Program-made: the position numbers and the translations under genes
The notes under the pieces: model-generated
Told to the model about the DNA's origin: nothing
Databases searched by the model: none
Seen by the model: only the letters and a program-made list of their open reading frames with translations
Shown: positions 5,867 through 64,000 of the stretch, one piece after another
Layout: the number at the start of each line of letters is the position of its first letter
How positions within the stretch are numbered: the first letter of the stretch is position 1
Origin: Allobranchiibius sp. CTAmp26
GTDB lineage: Bacteria; Actinomycetota; Actinomycetes; Actinomycetales; Dermatophilaceae
Assembly (NCBI RefSeq): GCF_017565405.1
Contig: NZ_JAGEKR010000017.1
Coordinates: 62,001 to 126,000 of the forward strand
Length of the DNA: 64,000 nt
Direction of reading: 5' to 3'

Positions 5867-7765
5867 TCACGGACCGCGCAGCACCGGGGCCAGTGCGTCG
5901 AGCACCGCCGTGTCCTCGATCGTGCCGGGCACCTGCGGGTCGTCGCCGTCGGCGAGCTGGCGCATCGTGCGGCGCAGGATCTTGCCCGACCGGGTCTTCG
6001 GCAGCGCCGCCACGATGTCGACCCGCTGCAGACCGGCGATCGCGCCGACCTGCTCGCGGACCAGCTGGGTGAGTTCGGTACGGATGCGCTCCTGCTCCTC
6101 CTCGGACGGCTCGTCGGCGCCCTTCAGCACCACCAGTGCTCGCGGCACCTGACCCTTCAGCTCGTCGGCGACGCCGATGACCGCGCACTCGGCGACGGCC
6201 GGGTGACTCGCCACGACGGCCTCGAGGCCGCCGGTCGAGAGACGATGCCCTGCGACGTTGAGCACGTCGTCGGTGCGCCCCATCACCCAGACATACCCGT
6301 CGTCGTCGATGTACCCGCCGTCGCCGGTCAGGTAGTACCCGTCGTACGCCGACAGGTAGGACTCGACGTACCGGTCGTCGTCGCCCCACAGCGTCGCCAG
6401 GGTGCCGGGCGGCATCGGCAGCTTGATGCACAGCGCGCCCTCCTGGCCCGGTGCACACGGCTCGCCGTCGGCGTCGAGCACGCGGACGTCGTACCCCGGG
6501 CTCGGCATCGTCGCCGACCCGGGCTTGATCGGGAAGAGCTGCGTGCCGATCGGGTTCGCGCAGATCGGCCAGCCGGTCTCGGTCTGCCACCAGTTGTCGA
6601 TGACCGGCACCTGCAGCCGGTCGGTCGCCCACTGCCAGGTGTCGGGGTCGGTGCGCTCCCCCGCGAGGAAGAGGGTGCGCAGACTCGACAGGTCGCGTCC
6701 GGCGATCAGTGCGCCCTCCGGGTCTTCCTTCTTGATGGCGCGGATGCCGGTCGGGGCGGTGAACAGCCCTGCGATCCGGTGCTGTTCGATCATCCGCCAG
6801 AACGTCGACGCATCGGGTGTGCCGACCGGCTTGCCCTCGAGCAGCACGGTCGTGCAGCCCGCGAGCAGCGGCGCGTAGACGATGTAGGAGTGGCCGACCA
6901 CCCAGCCGACGTCGGACGCGGTGAACCACACGTCACCCGGCTGCATCCCGAAGATGTGCGTCATCGACCAGTGCAGCGCGACCGCGTGGCCACCGGTGTC
7001 GCGCACGATCCCCTTGGGTCGGCCGGTGGTGCCGGAGGTGTGCAGGATGTACAGCGGGTCCGACCCCAGCATCGGCACGCAGCCCGCGGCCCCGACACCG
7101 TCGGGGCGCATGGCCGTTCGCCAGTCGATGTCCCGCTCGCCCATCGGGGCCTCGGCCTGCGGGCGCTGGAGTACGACAACGCTCTCCGGCGGGTGCTGCG
7201 CACGCTCGATCGCCGCGTCGACCATCGGCTTGTACTCCACCACGCGGGTGCGCTCGACCCCGCACGAGGCGGTGATGAGCACCTTCGGGCGGGCATCGTC
7301 GATCCGCGCGGCGAGCTCGGCCGGGGCGAACCCGCCGAAGACCACCGCGTGCACCGCGCCGATCCGCGCGCAGGCCAGCATGCTGACGACTGCCTCGGGG
7401 ATCATCGGCAGGTAGATGACGACGCGGTCGCCCTTCTGCACTCCCAGTGCCGTGAGCATCCCGGCGGCCCGCCCGACCAGGTCGAGCAGCTGCGCGTACG
7501 TGTAGGTGCGGCTGTCCTGCGTCACCGGGCTGTCCCATATCACCGCGGGCTGGTCGGCCCGCCCGGCGATCACGTGACGGTCGAGCGCGTTGAAGCAGGT
7601 GTTCATCCGGCCGTCGGGGAACCACCGGTACAACGGCGCGTGGGAGTCGTCCAGCACGGTCTTGGGGAAGTTGATCCAGTCGATGCCGCGCGCGGCATCA
7701 GCCCAGAACGCCTCCGGGTCCCGCATGCTCGCTTCGTATGCCGCCTCGTACGCGCCGCTGCTCAT
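5867..7765 (-). CDS. prpE: propionyl-CoA synthetase (acyl-CoA synthetase, AMP-forming)
   Basis: Activates propionate (possibly acetate) to its CoA thioester through an acyl-AMP intermediate; cytosolic, 632 residues, normal for PrpE. Adenylate-forming signatures are present: YILHTSGTTGRPKGIV (P-loop), DNWWQTETGWPI, YYLTGDGGYIDDDGYVWVMG and the C-terminal LPKTRSGKILRR whose lysine carries out adenylation. The N-terminus YEAAYEASMRDPEAFW matches the family. I place the start at 7765, ten bases after GGAG; an in-frame ATG at 7774 sits only one base after it. Together with ramB, aceA and aceB elsewhere in the window it fits use of short-chain fatty acids. Confidence 0.92.
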   Translation of the reverse strand: MSSGAYEAAYEASMRDPEAFWADAARGIDWINFPKTVLDDSHAPLYRWFPDGRMNTCFNALDRHVIAGRADQPAVIWDSPVTQDSRTYTYAQLLDLVGRAAGMLTALGVQKGDRVVIYLPMIPEAVVSMLACARIGAVHAVVFGGFAPAELAARIDDARPKVLITASCGVERTRVVEYKPMVDAAIERAQHPPESVVVLQRPQAEAPMGERDIDWRTAMRPDGVGAAGCVPMLGSDPLYILHTSGTTGRPKGIVRDTGGHAVALHWSMTHIFGMQPGDVWFTASDVGWVVGHSYIVYAPLLAGCTTVLLEGKPVGTPDASTFWRMIEQHRIAGLFTAPTGIRAIKKEDPEGALIAGRDLSSLRTLFLAGERTDPDTWQWATDRLQVPVIDNWWQTETGWPICANPIGTQLFPIKPGSATMPSPGYDVRVLDADGEPCAPGQEGALCIKLPMPPGTLATLWGDDDRYVESYLSAYDGYYLTGDGGYIDDDGYVWVMGRTDDVLNVAGHRLSTGGLEAVVASHPAVAECAVIGVADELKGQVPRALVVLKGADEPSEEEQERIRTELTQLVREQVGAIAGLQRVDIVAALPKTRSGKILRRTMRQLADGDDPQVPGTIEDTAVLDALAPVLRGP

Positions 7766-7780
7766 GCCCGTCATTCTCCA

Positions 7781-7844
7781 CGCCGACTGCGCATGTCGGG
7801 TCCCGATTCACCCCGGATCGGGCACGCGACATGCGCAGTCGGCG
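7781..7844 (-). terminator. long hairpin between the secreted protein gene and prpE
   Basis: Arms of about 27 bases (7781-7807 and 7817-7844) with only a few mismatches enclose a short loop. It starts ten bases after the upstream stop, so it can terminate that gene, and it ends just before the prpE ribosome-binding site. No T-run follows. Confidence 0.6.
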
Positions 7845-7854
7845 GGTCGGTCGG

Positions 7855-8343
7855 TCAGTAACCGCCCTCGCAGATCAGGTGCAGGTTGGAACGCAGCGAC
7901 GCCGGCACCGCGCAGCCCACCCCCGCCGTGCCGAGGGTGACGACGGTCCACCGGCCCTTGACGCGGTGCAGCGCGACGCTCGCGTCATCGGTGCGCTGGT
8001 CGATCGGGTGCACCACGGCCGAGGCCCACGAGGCATTCGTCGACGCGACCCGGATGGAGCGCACAGCGACGTCGGACGCCGGCACGTCCCCGAGCAACGG
8101 GCTGTGCTTGATGGCCGCGGTGATCGCGGCGTTCGTCGAGCTCGTCGAGCTCGTCGAGCTCGTCGACCGCGTCGTGATCCCCCGATGGGTCACGATGGCG
8201 GGCGACGTCCGGTGGCTGACGGCGTTGTTCAGGCTCGTCACGCTCTTCACCGAGTGCGCGGCCGGGGCCGCCTGGGCCACCGACACCGCCCCCGCCGCCG
8301 CGATCGCCACTGCTGCCGGAATCACACACACCGCACGCTTCAT
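7855..8343 (-). CDS. secreted protein of unknown function
   Basis: 162 residues starting at ATG 8343, which has a good AAGGAG site. Residues 1-29 are a signal peptide (basic start, alanine-rich hydrophobic core, AQAAPAA cleavage region). The mature part begins with a Ser/Thr-rich low-complexity segment, TTRSTSSTSSTSSTN, coded by a 9-base tandem repeat. The remainder (SDVAVRSIRVASTNASWASA... VALHRVKGRWTVVTLGTAGVGC... LICEGGY) looks like a small folded domain with two cysteines that could pair. No family recognised. It is monocistronic, upstream of prpE but separated from it by a long hairpin. Confidence 0.8.
   Translation of the reverse strand: MKRAVCVIPAAVAIAAAGAVSVAQAAPAAHSVKSVTSLNNAVSHRTSPAIVTHRGITTRSTSSTSSTSSTNAAITAAIKHSPLLGDVPASDVAVRSIRVASTNASWASAVVHPIDQRTDDASVALHRVKGRWTVVTLGTAGVGCAVPASLRSNLHLICEGGY
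8132..8166. repeat. 9-bp tandem repeat coding a Ser/Thr linker
   Basis: Unit CTCGTCGAG, about 3.5 nearly perfect copies, inside the secreted-protein gene. It encodes repeated Ser-Thr-Ser triplets and could vary in copy number by slippage. Confidence 0.8.
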
Positions 8344-8498
8344 CTGCTGTCCTTCTCCTTGCTCTGCGACCGGTTGGTCGCTCCCCGAGTACGCCGGTGA
8401 TGTCCACCGGCACTTGGGCAGACGTACGAGCACTCGATTCGGTTGTCTCGGGAGGCGGTTCGAGACCGAACCGTGATCCCGACCGGCAGGATGGCCTC

Positions 8499-46631: not shown

Positions 46632-47537
46632 TCAGCAGGTCGGTACGCCGGGGATCCGGGCGTCGTTCGCGCCACCGCTCACGTGGGTGGCGTTGACCCA
46701 CACGTTCGCGTTGCCCGAGTCGTCGTCGGTCTTCAGCCACCAGCCGTTGCGGTAACCGTCGTAATGCACCTCGGAGCCCTTCGCCTGGCAGAAGAAGTAG
46801 TTACGACCGGTGTGCAGCACACCGACCTTCCTCCCTCCCGACGGCTTCGTGTACGACGACGCCTGCGCCCACACGTTCTTGTAGACCTTCGTCGGGCGGT
46901 GCTTCTTCGGCGGCGCCGGCGGCGTGGACGGGGGCGGGGTCCTGCCGCTCCAGATCGCGTCGACCAGCACCTTGGCCGGAGAACTCTCGCCGGTGTACGC
47001 CGAGGGGTACGCCGAGATCTGCACCCGTTGCGCCACCTTCGCGGCGTCGGTGTGTCTCCAACCGCCGTGCGGGTAGTCCGCCAGCATGTGCCGCAGGAAG
47101 GTGCGCGTGGCGTGCTCCGGCGTGCGGCACTGCGCCACGCTCCCCCAGCCCTGCGACGGTCGCTGCTGGAAGAGTCCGACACTGTCGTCGGCGCCGCCCT
47201 TGTGGTTGTGCAGCGTGCTCTCGGCGATCGCGGTCATCAGTGCGATGTACGCCGCTCGCCGGGGCAGCCCGATCGACTTCGTGCCCGCGACGATGGCCCG
47301 GGCGCAGGCGATCTGCTGGGCGTCGACCGAGTCGCCGAGGCGCGCGCCGTGGAAGTGGCCCGACACCTTCCGTGCGAGGTCCGCGTCGCCCGCGTGCCGC
47401 GTGCAGATCTGGGCGCTCGCTGAGGCCGCTGCGGGGTGGTGGCCGACAGCGACCGCACCCGTCGCCATCCCGGTCACCGCAACGCCGGACACGCCCAACG
47501 CCACCACCGACCGTGTCACCATTCTGGAATTCTTCAT
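46632..47537 (-). CDS. secreted lysozyme-like protein with SH3 module
   Basis: 301 residues. ATG 47537 has AGGGAAG six bases upstream; ATG 47543 is possible. Signal peptide to about 42. Residues 45-205 look like a lysozyme/transglycosylase-related domain: IALMTAIAESTLHN has the probable catalytic Glu, SVGLFQQRPSQGWGS is a frequent partner motif, and AYPSAYTGESSPAKVLVDAIW ends it. A Pro-rich linker leads to an 84-residue SH3-like module (VYKNVWAQASSYTK... GVPTC). Role: peptidoglycan cleavage. Second gene of a pair with the next entry. Confidence 0.82.
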   Translation of the reverse strand: MKNSRMVTRSVVALGVSGVAVTGMATGAVAVGHHPAAASASAQICTRHAGDADLARKVSGHFHGARLGDSVDAQQIACARAIVAGTKSIGLPRRAAYIALMTAIAESTLHNHKGGADDSVGLFQQRPSQGWGSVAQCRTPEHATRTFLRHMLADYPHGGWRHTDAAKVAQRVQISAYPSAYTGESSPAKVLVDAIWSGRTPPPSTPPAPPKKHRPTKVYKNVWAQASSYTKPSGGRKVGVLHTGRNYFFCQAKGSEVHYDGYRNGWWLKTDDDSGNANVWVNATHVSGGANDARIPGVPTC

Positions 47538-47578
47538 GATCATCTTCCCTTTCGGAAATGCATGAGGGTTCGAAGGGC

Positions 47579-48484
47579 TCAGCAGGTGCGGACGCCGGGG
47601 ATCCGGGCGTCGTTCGCACCACCGCTCACGTGTGTGGCATTGATCCAGACATTCGCGTTGCCCGAGTCGTCGTCGGTCTTCAGCCACCAGTTGTTGCGGT
47701 AGCCGTCGAAATGCACTTCGGAGCCCTTGGCCTGGCAGAAGAAGTAATTGCGACCGGTGTGCAGCACACCGACCTTCCGGCCATCGGATGCCCGGGTGTA
47801 GGACGGCGCCTGCGCCCAGACGTTCTTGTAGACCTTCTTCGGGTGGTGCTTCGCCGGCGGCGTCGGAGTGGACGGCGGCGTGCTGCCCGTGCCGGCGTAC
47901 CGGTAGATGCCGGTGACGGGCTCGCTCTCGGTGGACAGCCGCTGGGTCGTCAGACCGGCCACGTCGCCCTCGGCCTGCACGACCTTGCCAGCCCCGATGT
48001 AGATCACGGTGTGGCCGGGGTACACCACGACGTCACCGGGCTGCGTGGCGCGGGAGATCTTCTTCCATCCGTGCTGCCGCAACGCTTTTCCCTCCACACC
48101 GGTGTACGCGCCCGCACCGATGTCACGGCCGGTGCCCTGGTAGACGGCCCACCGCACAAGTCCGGAGCAGTCGAATCCGACCTTGTGGGTGTCGTCGTAG
48201 TACTCGCCACCCTCGTTGTAGACCGAGCCGGTGGACTTGCCCGGCTTCGTGTGGTGACCGCCGTTCCACGAGTACTTCGTGCCCTTCTTCAGCTCGGCGC
48301 ACGCCGTGTCGACGATGGCGGTCTGGATCTTGTCGGCCGATCCGTAGACGTGGCAGACGGAGCCGTTACGGGTCGAGGCATGGGCGGCTCCGGAGCCGAA
48401 TGCCACGACTCCGCCGACCGCGATGCCGCTGCTCAGCGCGAGCGCGGTGGTGCCGTGAATCATCTTCTTGGTGACGGTGCTCAT
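47579..48484 (-). CDS. secreted NlpC/P60 endopeptidase with SH3 module
   Basis: 301 residues, the same length as its neighbour. GGAAGAG precedes ATG 48484. Signal peptide 1-36 (SGAAHAST). NlpC/P60 domain about 45-190: KYSWNGGHH, KVGFDCSGLVRWAVYQ (Cys), TQPGDVVVYPGHTVIYIGAGK (His). A Pro/Thr linker (STPPSTPTPPAKHHP) leads to an 84-residue SH3-like module 90% identical to the one in the downstream gene. It starts the two-gene operon. Peptidoglycan stem-peptide cleavage is the expected role. Confidence 0.88.
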   Translation of the reverse strand: MSTVTKKMIHGTTALALSSGIAVGGVVAFGSGAAHASTRNGSVCHVYGSADKIQTAIVDTACAELKKGTKYSWNGGHHTKPGKSTGSVYNEGGEYYDDTHKVGFDCSGLVRWAVYQGTGRDIGAGAYTGVEGKALRQHGWKKISRATQPGDVVVYPGHTVIYIGAGKVVQAEGDVAGLTTQRLSTESEPVTGIYRYAGTGSTPPSTPTPPAKHHPKKVYKNVWAQAPSYTRASDGRKVGVLHTGRNYFFCQAKGSEVHFDGYRNNWWLKTDDDSGNANVWINATHVSGGANDARIPGVRTC

Positions 48485-60086: not shown

Positions 60087-61973
60087 TCAGCCGTCGCCGT
60101 CGGCGAGAGGTGCCTGAGCCCGGTGCTGTTCCTCGCTGTGCACCGTGATGGCCGCATTCATCAGCGCCAGGTGGGACAACGCCTGGGGGAGGTTGCCGCC
60201 GAACGCCCCGGTGCGGGCGTCGATCATCTCCGAGAGCAGGCCGACGTCGTTCAGGCCGCGCACCAACTCGTCCATCAGGTTGCGCGCCTCCTCGAGCCGT
60301 CCCACGAGAGCCAGTGCGGAGACCCGCCAGAACGAGCACGCCGTGAAGGTGAGCTCTTCCTGGTCGGCACCGGAGTACCGGTAGAGGTAGGGCCCGTCGC
60401 TCAGCTGGGCCCCCAGGGCGTCGAGGGTGCGGGACATCCGCTCACCGCGGTCGAAGCCGCTGATCGCGTGCAGCAGGATCGACGCGTCGAGCACGCCGCT
60501 GCCCGGGTACCACTCGTACGCGCCGAGCTCCTCGTTCCAGCAGTGCTCGGAGACCCACTCCGCGATCGCGTTCGCCTCGTGGCGCCAGCGGTCCACGCTG
60601 CCGGGGATCTGACCGATCTCGGCCAGATGCACCGCGTGCTTCAGCGCCTGCCAGCAGCCGAGCTTGGAGGTCGTGTAGTGCTGTTCCTCCGGGAGCTCCC
60701 ACATCCCGGAGTCGCGGCTGCGCCACTGGTCGCACGCCAGGTCCGCGACCGTGGTGAGCAACCGACCGGTGGCCTCGTCCAGCACGTTGCCGTGGTCCAC
60801 GTAGAGCTGCACGATGTTGAAGATGTCGCCGTAGATCCCGAGCTGCAGCTGACCGTCGGCCTGGTTGCCGGACCGCACCGGGCCGACCCCACGCCATCCG
60901 GGCACGTCGTACGTGTGCAGCTCGTCCGGTCGCTGGGTACCGTCCAGGCGCTGCAGCACCTGCGGTTGAGATCCCTGCTCCCGCAGGATCCGCAGCATCC
61001 AGCTGATGGCGCCGTGGGTCTCCTCGCGCACGCCGAAACGGAAGAGCGCGGTCAGCGAGAACGCCGTGTCGCGCACCCAGGAGTAGCGGTAGTCCCAGTT
61101 CTTGTCCTTCGTGAGGGACTCCGGCAACGACGTCGTCGCAGCGGCCGCGAGGGCGCCGGTCGGGGCGAAGATCAGCTGCTTGAGCAGCAACGCGCTGCGC
61201 TGCACCTCCTGCGGCCACGGGCCGTCCCACCCGAAGGCGTCGCTCCAGGCACGCCAGTTGGCGACGGTGCGGTCGATCCCCTCGTCGATCGCCTCCGGCG
61301 TCGGCAGGTAGAGGGGTTCGCTCGCCGTGCTCGTCAGACCCAGCAGATGACGCGAGCCGGGGCTCGTGCGGTAGTCCACCGCGATCGAGCGGGTGGTCAC
61401 CTCGACCGACTCCTCGTGCAGCGTGCGCACCGCCATCGTGAGTCCGTCGAGTCGCAGCACCTTGCCGTGCACCGAGTCGTAGACCCAGGGCGACGCGGTG
61501 TTCAGACAGGTGCCGGGCTCGACACGGGCACGCAGGAGCACGTCGCCCTCGAGACCGTCGATCCGGCGACCCAGCTCGCACCAGGGCAGTCGACCGGCCA
61601 GCCCGGTGTTGAGCGAATCGGTCACCCGGACCCGGCCGCTCTCGGTGGTGTAGGTCGTCTCGAGCACGTTGGTGCCCGGCACGTAGCGCCGTTCGACGCT
61701 CGCCTCGTCCACCGGGGCCAGCGCGATGCGACCACCGTTCGCCGCGTCGAGCAGGGCGGCGAACGGGGGCACCGAGTCGAGGTTGGGCAGCGGCAACCAG
61801 TCGACGCATCCGTCGCGGGCGATGAGGGCGATGGTGCGGCCGTCGCCGATCGAGGCGTAGTCGCGCAGGTCGGCGTACCCCGCATCGTCGCGGCCGTCGA
61901 GCGGGCCGGACACGGGATCGCCCCCGTGCCACGCCGGTTGCGCAGAACTGTTGGCCCATTCGCAACCCGTCAC
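60087..61973 (-). CDS. cytosolic GH15 glucoamylase/trehalase-like enzyme
   Basis: 628 residues, no signal peptide. N-terminal beta-sandwich with [39 protein letters not shown], then the (alpha/alpha)6 barrel: [62 protein letters not shown] (catalytic Glu region) and [21 protein letters not shown]. Closest in layout to actinobacterial GH15 trehalases and glucoamylase-like proteins; the substrate (trehalose or maltodextrin) is undecided. GTG 61973 overlaps the SDR stop (GTGA); GTG 61913 is an alternative. Confidence 0.9.
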
Positions 61974-62863
61974 GGCGTAGGCATACCACCGTTGACATGG
62001 AGGGTTTCGCCCGACACGAAGCTGGACTCGGCGGAGGCCAGATAAACGAACGCCGGCGCGAGGTCGGCCGGCTGTCCGGGGCGGCCGAGCGGGGTGGACT
62101 GCCCGAACTCCGGCAACTCCTCCGGCGGCTGACCCCCCGCGGTCTGCAACGGCGTCCACACCGGACCCGGCGCGACCACGTTCACGCGGATGCCCTTGGA
62201 AGCGACCTGTTGGGCCAGACCCTTGCAGAACGTGTTGATGGCGGCCTTGGTGGTGGCGTACTCCAGCAGGTTCGGAGACGGCTGGTAGGCCTGGATGGAC
62301 GAGGTGCCGATGATCACCGAACCCGGCGTCAGGTGCGGCAGCGCCGCCTTCGCGATCCAGAAGAGCGCGTAGACGTTCGTCTTGAAGGTGTCGTCGAACT
62401 GCTCCGTGGTGAGATCGGCGATGTCCTCGACGTGCTGCTGGCGGCCGCCGTTGGAGACCACGATGTCGATGCCGCCCAGCTCCCGGACCGTCGTCTCCAC
62501 GAGCGAGGTGCAGTAGCTCTCATCGGTCAGGTCGCCCGGGGCGAGCACCGCCTTCCGGCCGGCCTGCTCGACCAGGCCCTTGATGCGCTGGGCATCCTCC
62601 TCCTCCTCGGGCAGATAGGAGATGACCACATCCGCGCCCTCGCGGGCGAACGCGATCACGGTGGCCGCGCCGATCCCGGAGTCGCCACCGGTGACCAGGG
62701 CCTTGCGGTCCTGCAACCGCTTGCTACCTCGGTAGGTCTCCTCGCCCAGGTCGGCCGGGTCGTCCAGCTTCGCGTCGAGCCCAGGGCCTTCCTGGGATTG
62801 CGCTGCCGTCTCGATGTCGGCGTACATGGTCGTGGGATCCGTCAGGGTGTATTGGTCAGCCAT
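61970..62863 (-). CDS. SDR oxidoreductase of the general-stress type (YdaD/YhdF-like)
   Basis: 297 residues. N-terminal extension (about 1-45) then [33 protein letters not shown], catalytic Ser in [11 protein letters not shown], Tyr-x-x-x-Lys in [16 protein letters not shown], and ending [14 protein letters not shown]. It is like Bacillus general-stress protein 39. The start at 62863 may be leaderless (CATACT seven bases ahead). Coupled to the GH15 gene; a joint osmotic-stress or trehalose role is plausible but inferred. Confidence 0.9.
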
Positions 62864-63039
62864 ACATCCGAGTATGGAGAACGGCGGTACGCCGCACTCA
62901 CCTCCCGGGGGCTGGTCGAGCCGACCCGGTACCGCATTGCGAGATGGTCGGGCGCGGAACCTCGCGGTCTCAAGGTCACCGGCGTACATTCTCCGACGAT
63001 CTGCACGGGGACACATCACTGGATTCTCGGGGGTTTTTA

Positions 63040-63807
63040 GTGACGGAACACGCCACGCGCGCCACGACACCGCGGCCGGAATCGATCTGCAACCAAGCGG
63101 ACTTCGTTTTCGAACTGGACCACCTCCGCCGGCGGGCGGCGGCAGGGGCATCTCGGCAGCGCATCGGCCTGGACAGCCTGGTCCGCGCGACCGGAATTCC
63201 CCGGTCATCGCTGCACGGCTATCTGGCCGGCACCTCGCTGCCGCCGGCGGATCGCCTGGACACTCTCGTGCTGGCCCTCGGAGCGACCCCGTCCGAGGCC
63301 CGCGAGTGGGCGCTCGCGCTGGACCGCCTCTTCGACGGCGCCCTCACCCGCCGCATCCGGGTCGACGCCGAGCTGCAGCTACCGACCGAGAACGCGCGGG
63401 TCCGCAGCCGGCGGGCGCGGGGGCTGCACACCGGGCCCGTCCCATTGCCCGACCGGCCCGGCGGCGATGGCGCGAACGGGCCCATCGTCGTCCACGCCTG
63501 CGTCTGCACGACGTGGGCGGGAAGTCACACGTATACCGAGCCGAACGCCGGATCGCGCCGGACCGGGTTCCTGCACGCGGGCAACAACTGGTTCCTCGGC
63601 CAGGCCGGCGGCGGCCCGAATCCCGGCACCACGCACGCGCCGCTCTCGCACATGTGGCTCTACACCCAGGCCGACATCGCCTACGACTCCGACGGCGGGT
63701 GGGGATGGGTGCCGGCCAACGCCGTCGCGAACGCCCAGTGCAACACCCCGCTCCCCGGCCTCCTGCAATGGAAACGTCCGGAAATGTCCGACGCGTCCAT
63801 CGGGTAG
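63040..63807 (+). CDS. HTH protein fused to an SH3-like wall module
   Basis: 255 residues from GTG 63040. Residues 20-105 are an Xre-type helix-turn-helix ([55 protein letters not shown]). After a basic linker, residues 148-245 form an SH3-type module like those in secreted wall proteins: [48 protein letters not shown]. No signal peptide or membrane helix is present, so both parts appear cytosolic. Divergent from the SDR. Function unknown. Confidence 0.75.
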
Positions 63808-63875
63808 CCGACCGCTGCTGATGTGCTGCCCGCGCTCCTCCCCACCAGCAACCGGGACTGCGAAGGCGGCACACC

Positions 63876-64000
63876 ATGACAGGTACGCGGCTCCACCCCC
63901 GGGTCCTCCGACCCAGGATCATCACCGTCCTCCTCGGACTGCTCTTCGCGTCGGTCGCGACGCTGTCCCTCGGATGGACCACCCCCGCGCACGCGGCCGA
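63876..64000 (+). CDS. secreted protein, 5' end only
   Basis: ATG 63876 begins MTGTRLHPRVLRPRIITVLL then GLLFASVATLSLGWTTPAHA, a signal peptide with an Ala-x-Ala cleavage site; the window ends two codons later. AAGG lies nine bases upstream. It follows the HTH-SH3 gene by 68 bases on the same strand and may be its target. Confidence 0.65.
   Translation, partial: MTGTRLHPRVLRPRIITVLLGLLFASVATLSLGWTTPAHAA

Follow-up and report, generated by a model that had tools for sequence, protein, structure and literature searches.

The locus raises the question of why a protein that looks cytosolic, and that begins with a DNA-binding helix-turn-helix (HTH) head, should end in a module of the type carried by secreted cell-wall proteins. 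The gene lies near the end of the window, the whole 64,000-nucleotide stretch of Allobranchiibius sp. CTAmp26 DNA that was analysed. It occupies positions 63040..63807 on the + strand, encodes 255 aa from a GTG start, and is preceded on the same strand by a GGGGG ribosome-binding site at 63029-63033. A longer reading frame starting at 62944 is unlikely, since windows of the DNA upstream are just 55-79% identical between two genomes and contain indels. An SDR oxidoreductase gene, named by eye, is transcribed divergently (61970..62863, - strand, with the start codon read as 62863) and is also the neighbour of the ortholog.

The regulator is confirmed as a real gene, conserved in two genomes of one genus and unusual in its parts. 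Its ortholog occurs in G002, one of the two same-genus genomes listed, with 80% protein identity; both proteins are full length and retain the linker and the module. A two-row profile of the full-length protein matched seven of 186 family genomes at E 1e-8 or better, and full-length matches were confined to two of the 186, the own genome (G000) and G002. A third genome of the genus (G001) gave no match to the regulator profile and none to the downstream hydrolase. Within the own genome (3.7 Mb), a tblastn search up to E 1 found, beyond the proteins of the interval 46632-48484, one weak match to the regulator head (E 0.297). Nei-Gojobori counts against the G002 ortholog give an overall dN/dS of 0.21, with 0.09 for residues 1-100, 0.13 for the linker, where synonymous sites are near saturation, and 0.33 for the module. 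Judging from these ratios, all parts of the regulator are kept under purifying selection, the module being the fastest changing. The order of the SDR, regulator and NlpC/P60 hydrolase genes is identical in the two genomes, which is weak as evidence in such close relatives. An origin from a phage or plasmid was considered and rejected: the full protein has no tblastn match in plasmids (1e-3) or phages (1e-2), and a pattern search of viral contigs did not find the regulator. The locus has no match in PADLOC, and in PHROGs the regulator had no more than weak HTH matches, none better than E 0.04.

The head, residues 13-102 (63076..63345, + strand), is of a kind common to actinobacterial HTH regulators, as indicated by a match to the Pfam family HTH_31 and by 53% identity over the same residues to a regulator at locus L045. 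The HTH_31 match (PF13560; residues 25-90) has an E value of 4.2e-5 and a score of 24.2 bits, which does not reach the cut-off of 27 bits; homologues with the same head do exceed it (45.6 bits at L006, 32.0 at L045 and 32.6 at L046). Against the regulators at L006, L007, L008, L045 and L046 the head shows 36-53% identity, confined to residues 2-105, and pairwise blastp E values for regulators of the L006/L045 type range from 3.7e-20 to 2.4e-11. Those at L006, L008, L045 and L046 have in common a C-terminal domain of about 220 aa that is unlike the tail of the window protein, with blastp matches stopping at residue 105 or earlier. This unnamed domain ends in GIRWEW-like residues. Other relatives of the head (L007, L049 and L134) carry parts that look NTPase-like by eye. 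Because the head relatives bear other C-terminal domains, the tail of the regulator was swapped.

The surroundings of these relatives were also inspected. The regulators at L006, L007, L008, L045 and L046 each adjoin a gene whose product starts with a signal-peptide-like segment, a pattern spotted after the fact and without a base rate. A crude signal-peptide rule found none among the neighbours of the L049 and L134 regulators, but it also missed the clear cases at L006 and L045, so its silence means little. A general rule by which such a regulator shares a domain with the adjacent secreted protein was abandoned, as similarity was not meaningful in the five relatives tested.

Head and tail are joined by an Arg/Pro-rich linker, residues 103-147 (63346..63480, + strand), which has no membrane helix. 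The linker of the window protein contains an 11-residue stretch (letters not shown), and a PVxLPxR stretch is kept in the ortholog, whose linker has fewer prolines.

The tail itself, residues 148-242 (63481..63765, + strand), is a wall-type SH3-like module from which two usual cysteines are missing. The initial annotation had seen in this protein an HTH regulator joined to a wall-type module and had likened the tail to modules encoded at 46632-48484, and both observations hold: alongside the HTH_31 match of the head, residues 128-241 and 131-241 are homologous to two secreted proteins of that interval, with tblastn E values of 5.6e-5 and 0.004. The interval is not a single gene; its minus strand contains two overlapping ORFs. 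One encodes a secreted protein with the module at its C-terminus (46632..47537, - strand; start placed at MKNSRM) and has no Pfam match, and the other a secreted NlpC/P60 protein, supported by a Pfam match, with the module in the same position (47579..48484, - strand). Beside the counterparts of this pair, G002 has a third module-bearing NlpC/P60-like gene (L010, 1991-2863). In blastp and tblastn searches with the window protein, homology to the wall-type family extends over the whole module.

Sequence profiles support an SH3 fold for this module, which is accordingly called SH3-like, although they do not prove it. Profile A2 ranks the PTK6 SH3 domain first in PDB (E 0.0085), and of the 12 PDB matches up to E 10, eight are SH3-containing proteins and four are not; with profile A1 the best match is the SH3 domain of Abl (E 0.077). 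An AlphaFold model of residues 140-255 consists mostly of strands (seven short ones) at a pLDDT of 39. When this model was submitted to Foldseek, the seven highest-ranked matches contained SH3 domains, none with an E value better than 0.41, and the 50 matches shown also included ribosomal proteins. Both structure predictions made were of low confidence and do not suffice as proof of the fold. No Pfam family, SH3_3 (PF08239) included, matches the module of the regulator itself, and the single modules tested had no match in Pfam (E 10) or NCBIfam (E 1). SH3_3 weakly matches two of the 15 rows of A2 (best E 0.017); the hydrolase gene matches Pfam SH3_9 below the cut-off (E 3.5e-5), and its G002 ortholog also matches SH3_3, again below the cut-off (E 0.015).

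Two profiles were used to trace the module. Profile A1 matched six of 396 order genomes and nine of 396 phylum genomes, with the own genome counted in both; its weakest matches (L018, L020 and L033, E 3e-4 to 9e-4) resemble other wall-binding repeats and are probably false. Profile A2 matched at least 235 of 394 genomes at E 1e-5 in a family taken as Streptomycetaceae, a naming that derives from the identity of the DNA of a module ORF in G1228:C5 to Streptomyces curacoi contig NZ_KQ947988.1. The 15 rows of A2 include both regulator modules; as A1 also has the regulator module among its rows, neither search is independent support for the homology of the regulator. Among the best 30 A2 matches, 25 are frames with a Ser/Thr kinase motif, in which a hydrophobic segment usually separates the kinase from the module. 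The remaining contexts are small secreted proteins and M23-like or NlpC/P60 proteins. On transmembrane Ser/Thr kinases of many Streptomycetaceae (L026, L027 and L053-L082), this unnamed module makes up the C-terminus, presumably the outer end. Given that the modules tested fall below Pfam cut-offs, it is a candidate for an undescribed sensor domain on these kinases.

The combination of the module with an HTH head was found only in the two HTH orthologs among all loci examined. In the Streptomycetaceae scan, 13 candidates were scored per genome and 70 matches were opened (the 30 best and 40 chosen ones, mostly shorter frames), so that further HTH fusions may exist. Five frames lacked an upstream hydrophobic peak (L030, L082, L089, L091 and L123) and are taken to be truncated at the end of the stretch or broken in frame.

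The origin of the tail was approached through its closest relatives. By blastp, the regulator module is most similar to small secreted proteins of Streptomyces, Rhizocola and Nonomuraea (34-46% identity). In a 42-row tree of chosen modules it groups with the same proteins, with support of 92/79 on a stem of 1.19; this support is below the 95/80 mark, and the tool warned of long branches, some of which join the large group that includes the regulator. It does not group with the modules from 46632-48484. Copying of the tail from the adjacent hydrolase is not supported either, as the modules of the hydrolase are more distant in both tree and blastp than the small secreted proteins found elsewhere. 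The regulator tail was swapped in, and the present neighbour was probably not its source.

What distinguishes the regulator from other carriers of the module is its apparent location. The initial annotation noted no signal peptide or membrane helix, and hydropathy bears this out for both orthologs: the highest 19-residue mean before the module is 0.86 in the regulator and 0.79 in the ortholog, against about 1.5-2.9 in module proteins with an intact N-terminal part. Export by a signal peptide, or an overlooked membrane helix, was discarded on hydropathy. All other opened module proteins with an intact N-terminal part look secreted or membrane-anchored by the same measure, and the regulator pair thus look like the sole cytosolic carriers of the module among the opened loci.

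This placement is accompanied by a change in cysteines. In the fetched loci, 104 distinct instances of the module were counted, 102 of them not from the regulator; this set of 102 is rich in kinases and thus not a sample of independent instances, and one of the instances lies inside another. Of the 102, 101 have the C-terminal cysteine and 97 that of the WFxC motif; both are absent from the two regulator orthologs. The loss is not total, as a third cysteine, present in 77 of the 102, is kept in both. Among the 22 columns that at least 75% of the 102 modules conserve, 14 are retained in both orthologs and seven are changed in both, namely those of the two cysteines and five more; one further column is changed in the window protein only. 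In the other module proteins the two cysteines would pair as a disulfide, and their loss fits the reducing environment of the cytosol.

The gene that follows gives the regulator a plausible connection to the wall. It begins at 63876 on the + strand, 68 bp after the regulator, runs past the end of the window (63876..64000 within it), and encodes 565 aa with a signal peptide, three tandem modules and an NlpC/P60 domain (Pfam E 1.5e-10), from which the product is predicted to be a wall hydrolase. The adjoining gene had been taken to encode a secreted protein, and the link is in fact tighter than this, as the product is an NlpC/P60 hydrolase with three modules of the same type as the regulator tail. 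At E 1e-30, the hydrolase was found in two of 186 family genomes, the same two as the regulator (G000 and G002). Two further small secreted proteins are encoded after the hydrolase (L011, about 7630-8020 and 8180-8403), and the first of them looks, by eye, like a small secreted protein encoded next to the L045 regulator of another genus. In the Streptomycetaceae genome G948 (L067 / L128, 5436-7364), the three-module NlpC/P60 hydrolase has a close counterpart. No HTH gene of the regulator's kind was present within the 12 kb examined there, and two-component-like genes and a membrane-protein ORF lie upstream of it.

The DNA between regulator and hydrolase is also conserved. A 95 bp block (63783..63877, + strand) spans the gap, with the 3' end of the regulator gene on one side and the start codon of the hydrolase on the other, and has 97.9% identity between the two genomes. 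Identity falls to about 75-89% in the regulator sequence ahead of it and in the hydrolase sequence immediately behind it, and to 55-79% in windows of the divergent promoter region. The gap between regulator and hydrolase is not set apart by high conservation alone: blocks equally or more conserved occur inside the hydrolase gene, in the small gene that comes next and across the gap that separates these two. The block is possibly a leader or an operator. It includes the ribosome-binding site of the hydrolase within a possible hairpin, which is no more stable than shuffled sequences (z -0.66) and hardly varies between the genomes, so that covariation cannot test it. No Rfam match was obtained for 62850-64000 up to E 5, and the own genome contains no convincing second copy of the block (next best match E 0.095). 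A scan limited to sigma-70-type promoters found no promoter-like site in 62800-64000. A shared operator was dismissed, as the conserved upstream regions of four genes have no 9- or 10-base word in common; two gene pairs share one 8-mer each in these regions, reverse complements included.

Several known systems resemble parts of this arrangement. Regulators of the AmpR type are a precedent for cytosolic proteins that respond to peptidoglycan fragments; AmpR is a LysR-type protein of Gram-negative bacteria that is not known to have an SH3-like part, and the window protein differs from it in having no LysR match in Pfam. RodZ has a cytosolic HTH, a membrane helix and a beta-rich C-terminal domain outside the membrane, whereas in the window protein no membrane helix separates the HTH from the C-terminal domain. 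The regulators at L006, L008, L045 and L046 are alike in the head (36-53%) and differ in their C-terminal domain of about 220 aa. The modules of Streptomyces secreted proteins and kinase ends are homologous over about 95 residues and alike in most conserved core columns, but those opened with an intact N-terminal part look extracellular, and nearly all have the two cysteines that the regulator is missing. At the level of the fold, the nearest likeness is to DtxR/IdeR, in which an N-terminal HTH is combined with a C-terminal SH3-like domain that takes part in activation (PMC10317159). The layout is the same and the sequence families differ: the window protein has no DtxR-family match in Pfam or NCBIfam up to E 10, and thus gives no sign of a DtxR-type wHTH or metal-binding dimerisation domain. 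Elsewhere, bacterial SH3 domains are placed beyond a membrane segment, as described for a Synechocystis kinase (PMC1262709) and, beyond a C-terminal membrane segment, mentioned for GTPase-centred systems (PMC7159879). Among the open-access matches listed, judged by titles and the beginnings of abstracts and with most subscription papers outside their coverage, none was on a regulator that is cytosolic and pairs an HTH with a wall-type SH3 module. The initial claim that no regulator of this layout has been described was too strong at the level of the fold, where DtxR/IdeR are a precedent (PMC10317159).

Taken together, the tentatively favoured reading, held with slightly less than even confidence, is that of a cytosolic one-component regulator that arose by domain swap, in which the tail module senses a ligand or partner and tunes the adjacent hydrolase. 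The anatomy of an HTH head, a linker and a small binding domain fits a regulator of this kind. The HTH_31-like head would bind DNA, and a wall-type module would have replaced the other C-terminal domains of the family. This module, without two cysteines yet with most of its core kept, would be the regulatory part, and its binding to a partner protein, or to a ligand that is peptide-like or derived from the wall, would change DNA binding. The target would be the divergent promoter region of the regulator itself, and read-through from this promoter would reach the hydrolase 68 bp downstream, so that the output of a module-bearing wall hydrolase could be tuned from inside the cell. A narrower version, in which an extracellular wall-binding module was internalised as the sensor of the regulator, lost its two cysteines, and now reads cytosolic precursors, recycled fragments or unexported module proteins to set the output of the adjacent hydrolase, is a rather doubtful possibility. 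The interpretation offered initially, that the tail may bind muropeptides or precursors and may control the gene from 63876, belongs here; as a whole, that interpretation is partly supported.

The module could instead be an internal part of the protein, a switch or dimerisation element that packs against the linker or a second subunit, governs dimerisation of the HTH head and senses nothing of the wall. This would be a somewhat unlikely outcome, though one with a model in DtxR/IdeR, for whose SH3-like domain either binding of a proline-rich linker or a change of partner has been proposed (PMC10317159). The linker of the window protein holds the 11-residue stretch (not shown) and the PVxLPxR stretch kept in the ortholog, and a faster-evolving module would fit the loss of a wall ligand; the ortholog's linker, however, is poorer in prolines, and the closest relatives of the module in the tree are secreted proteins rather than regulator domains. 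The higher dN/dS of the module (0.33 against 0.09 in the head), together with the two conserved cysteines and five further conserved columns changed in both orthologs, also bears on the idea that the tail is a leftover of gene fusion which merely stabilises the protein while the HTH head does all the work. This is unlikely, as a ratio well below 1, the retention of most core columns and the full length kept in both orthologs argue against a tail without a role.

Two further alternatives concern the secretory pathway. If the cytosolic module bound the unexported hydrolase through their homologous modules, a build-up of preprotein would lower or raise expression, and regulation would be coupled to export. 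The homology between the modules of the regulator and of the downstream product, and the adjacency and co-occurrence of the two genes, agree with such feedback, but in both tree and blastp the three modules of the neighbour are more distant from the regulator module than are those of other secreted proteins; such feedback is distinctly improbable. That the regulator itself is exported by a non-classical pathway and works at the wall is very improbable: the other opened module proteins with an intact N-terminal part do look exported or membrane-anchored by hydropathy, yet both orthologs have neither signal peptide nor helix, two cysteines are missing, and the HTH head is conserved.

The meaning of the regulator would depend on what its tail recognises. 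If it recognises the same things as its secreted relatives, the favoured reading of a cytosolic one-component regulator would describe a wall sensor that works inside a Gram-positive cell and is built from a wall-type module, and the protein would offer a soluble handle on the ligand of the module that ends many Streptomyces Ser/Thr kinases. If it does not, the regulator would still be a clean case of the exchange of a regulator's C-terminal domain by shuffling.
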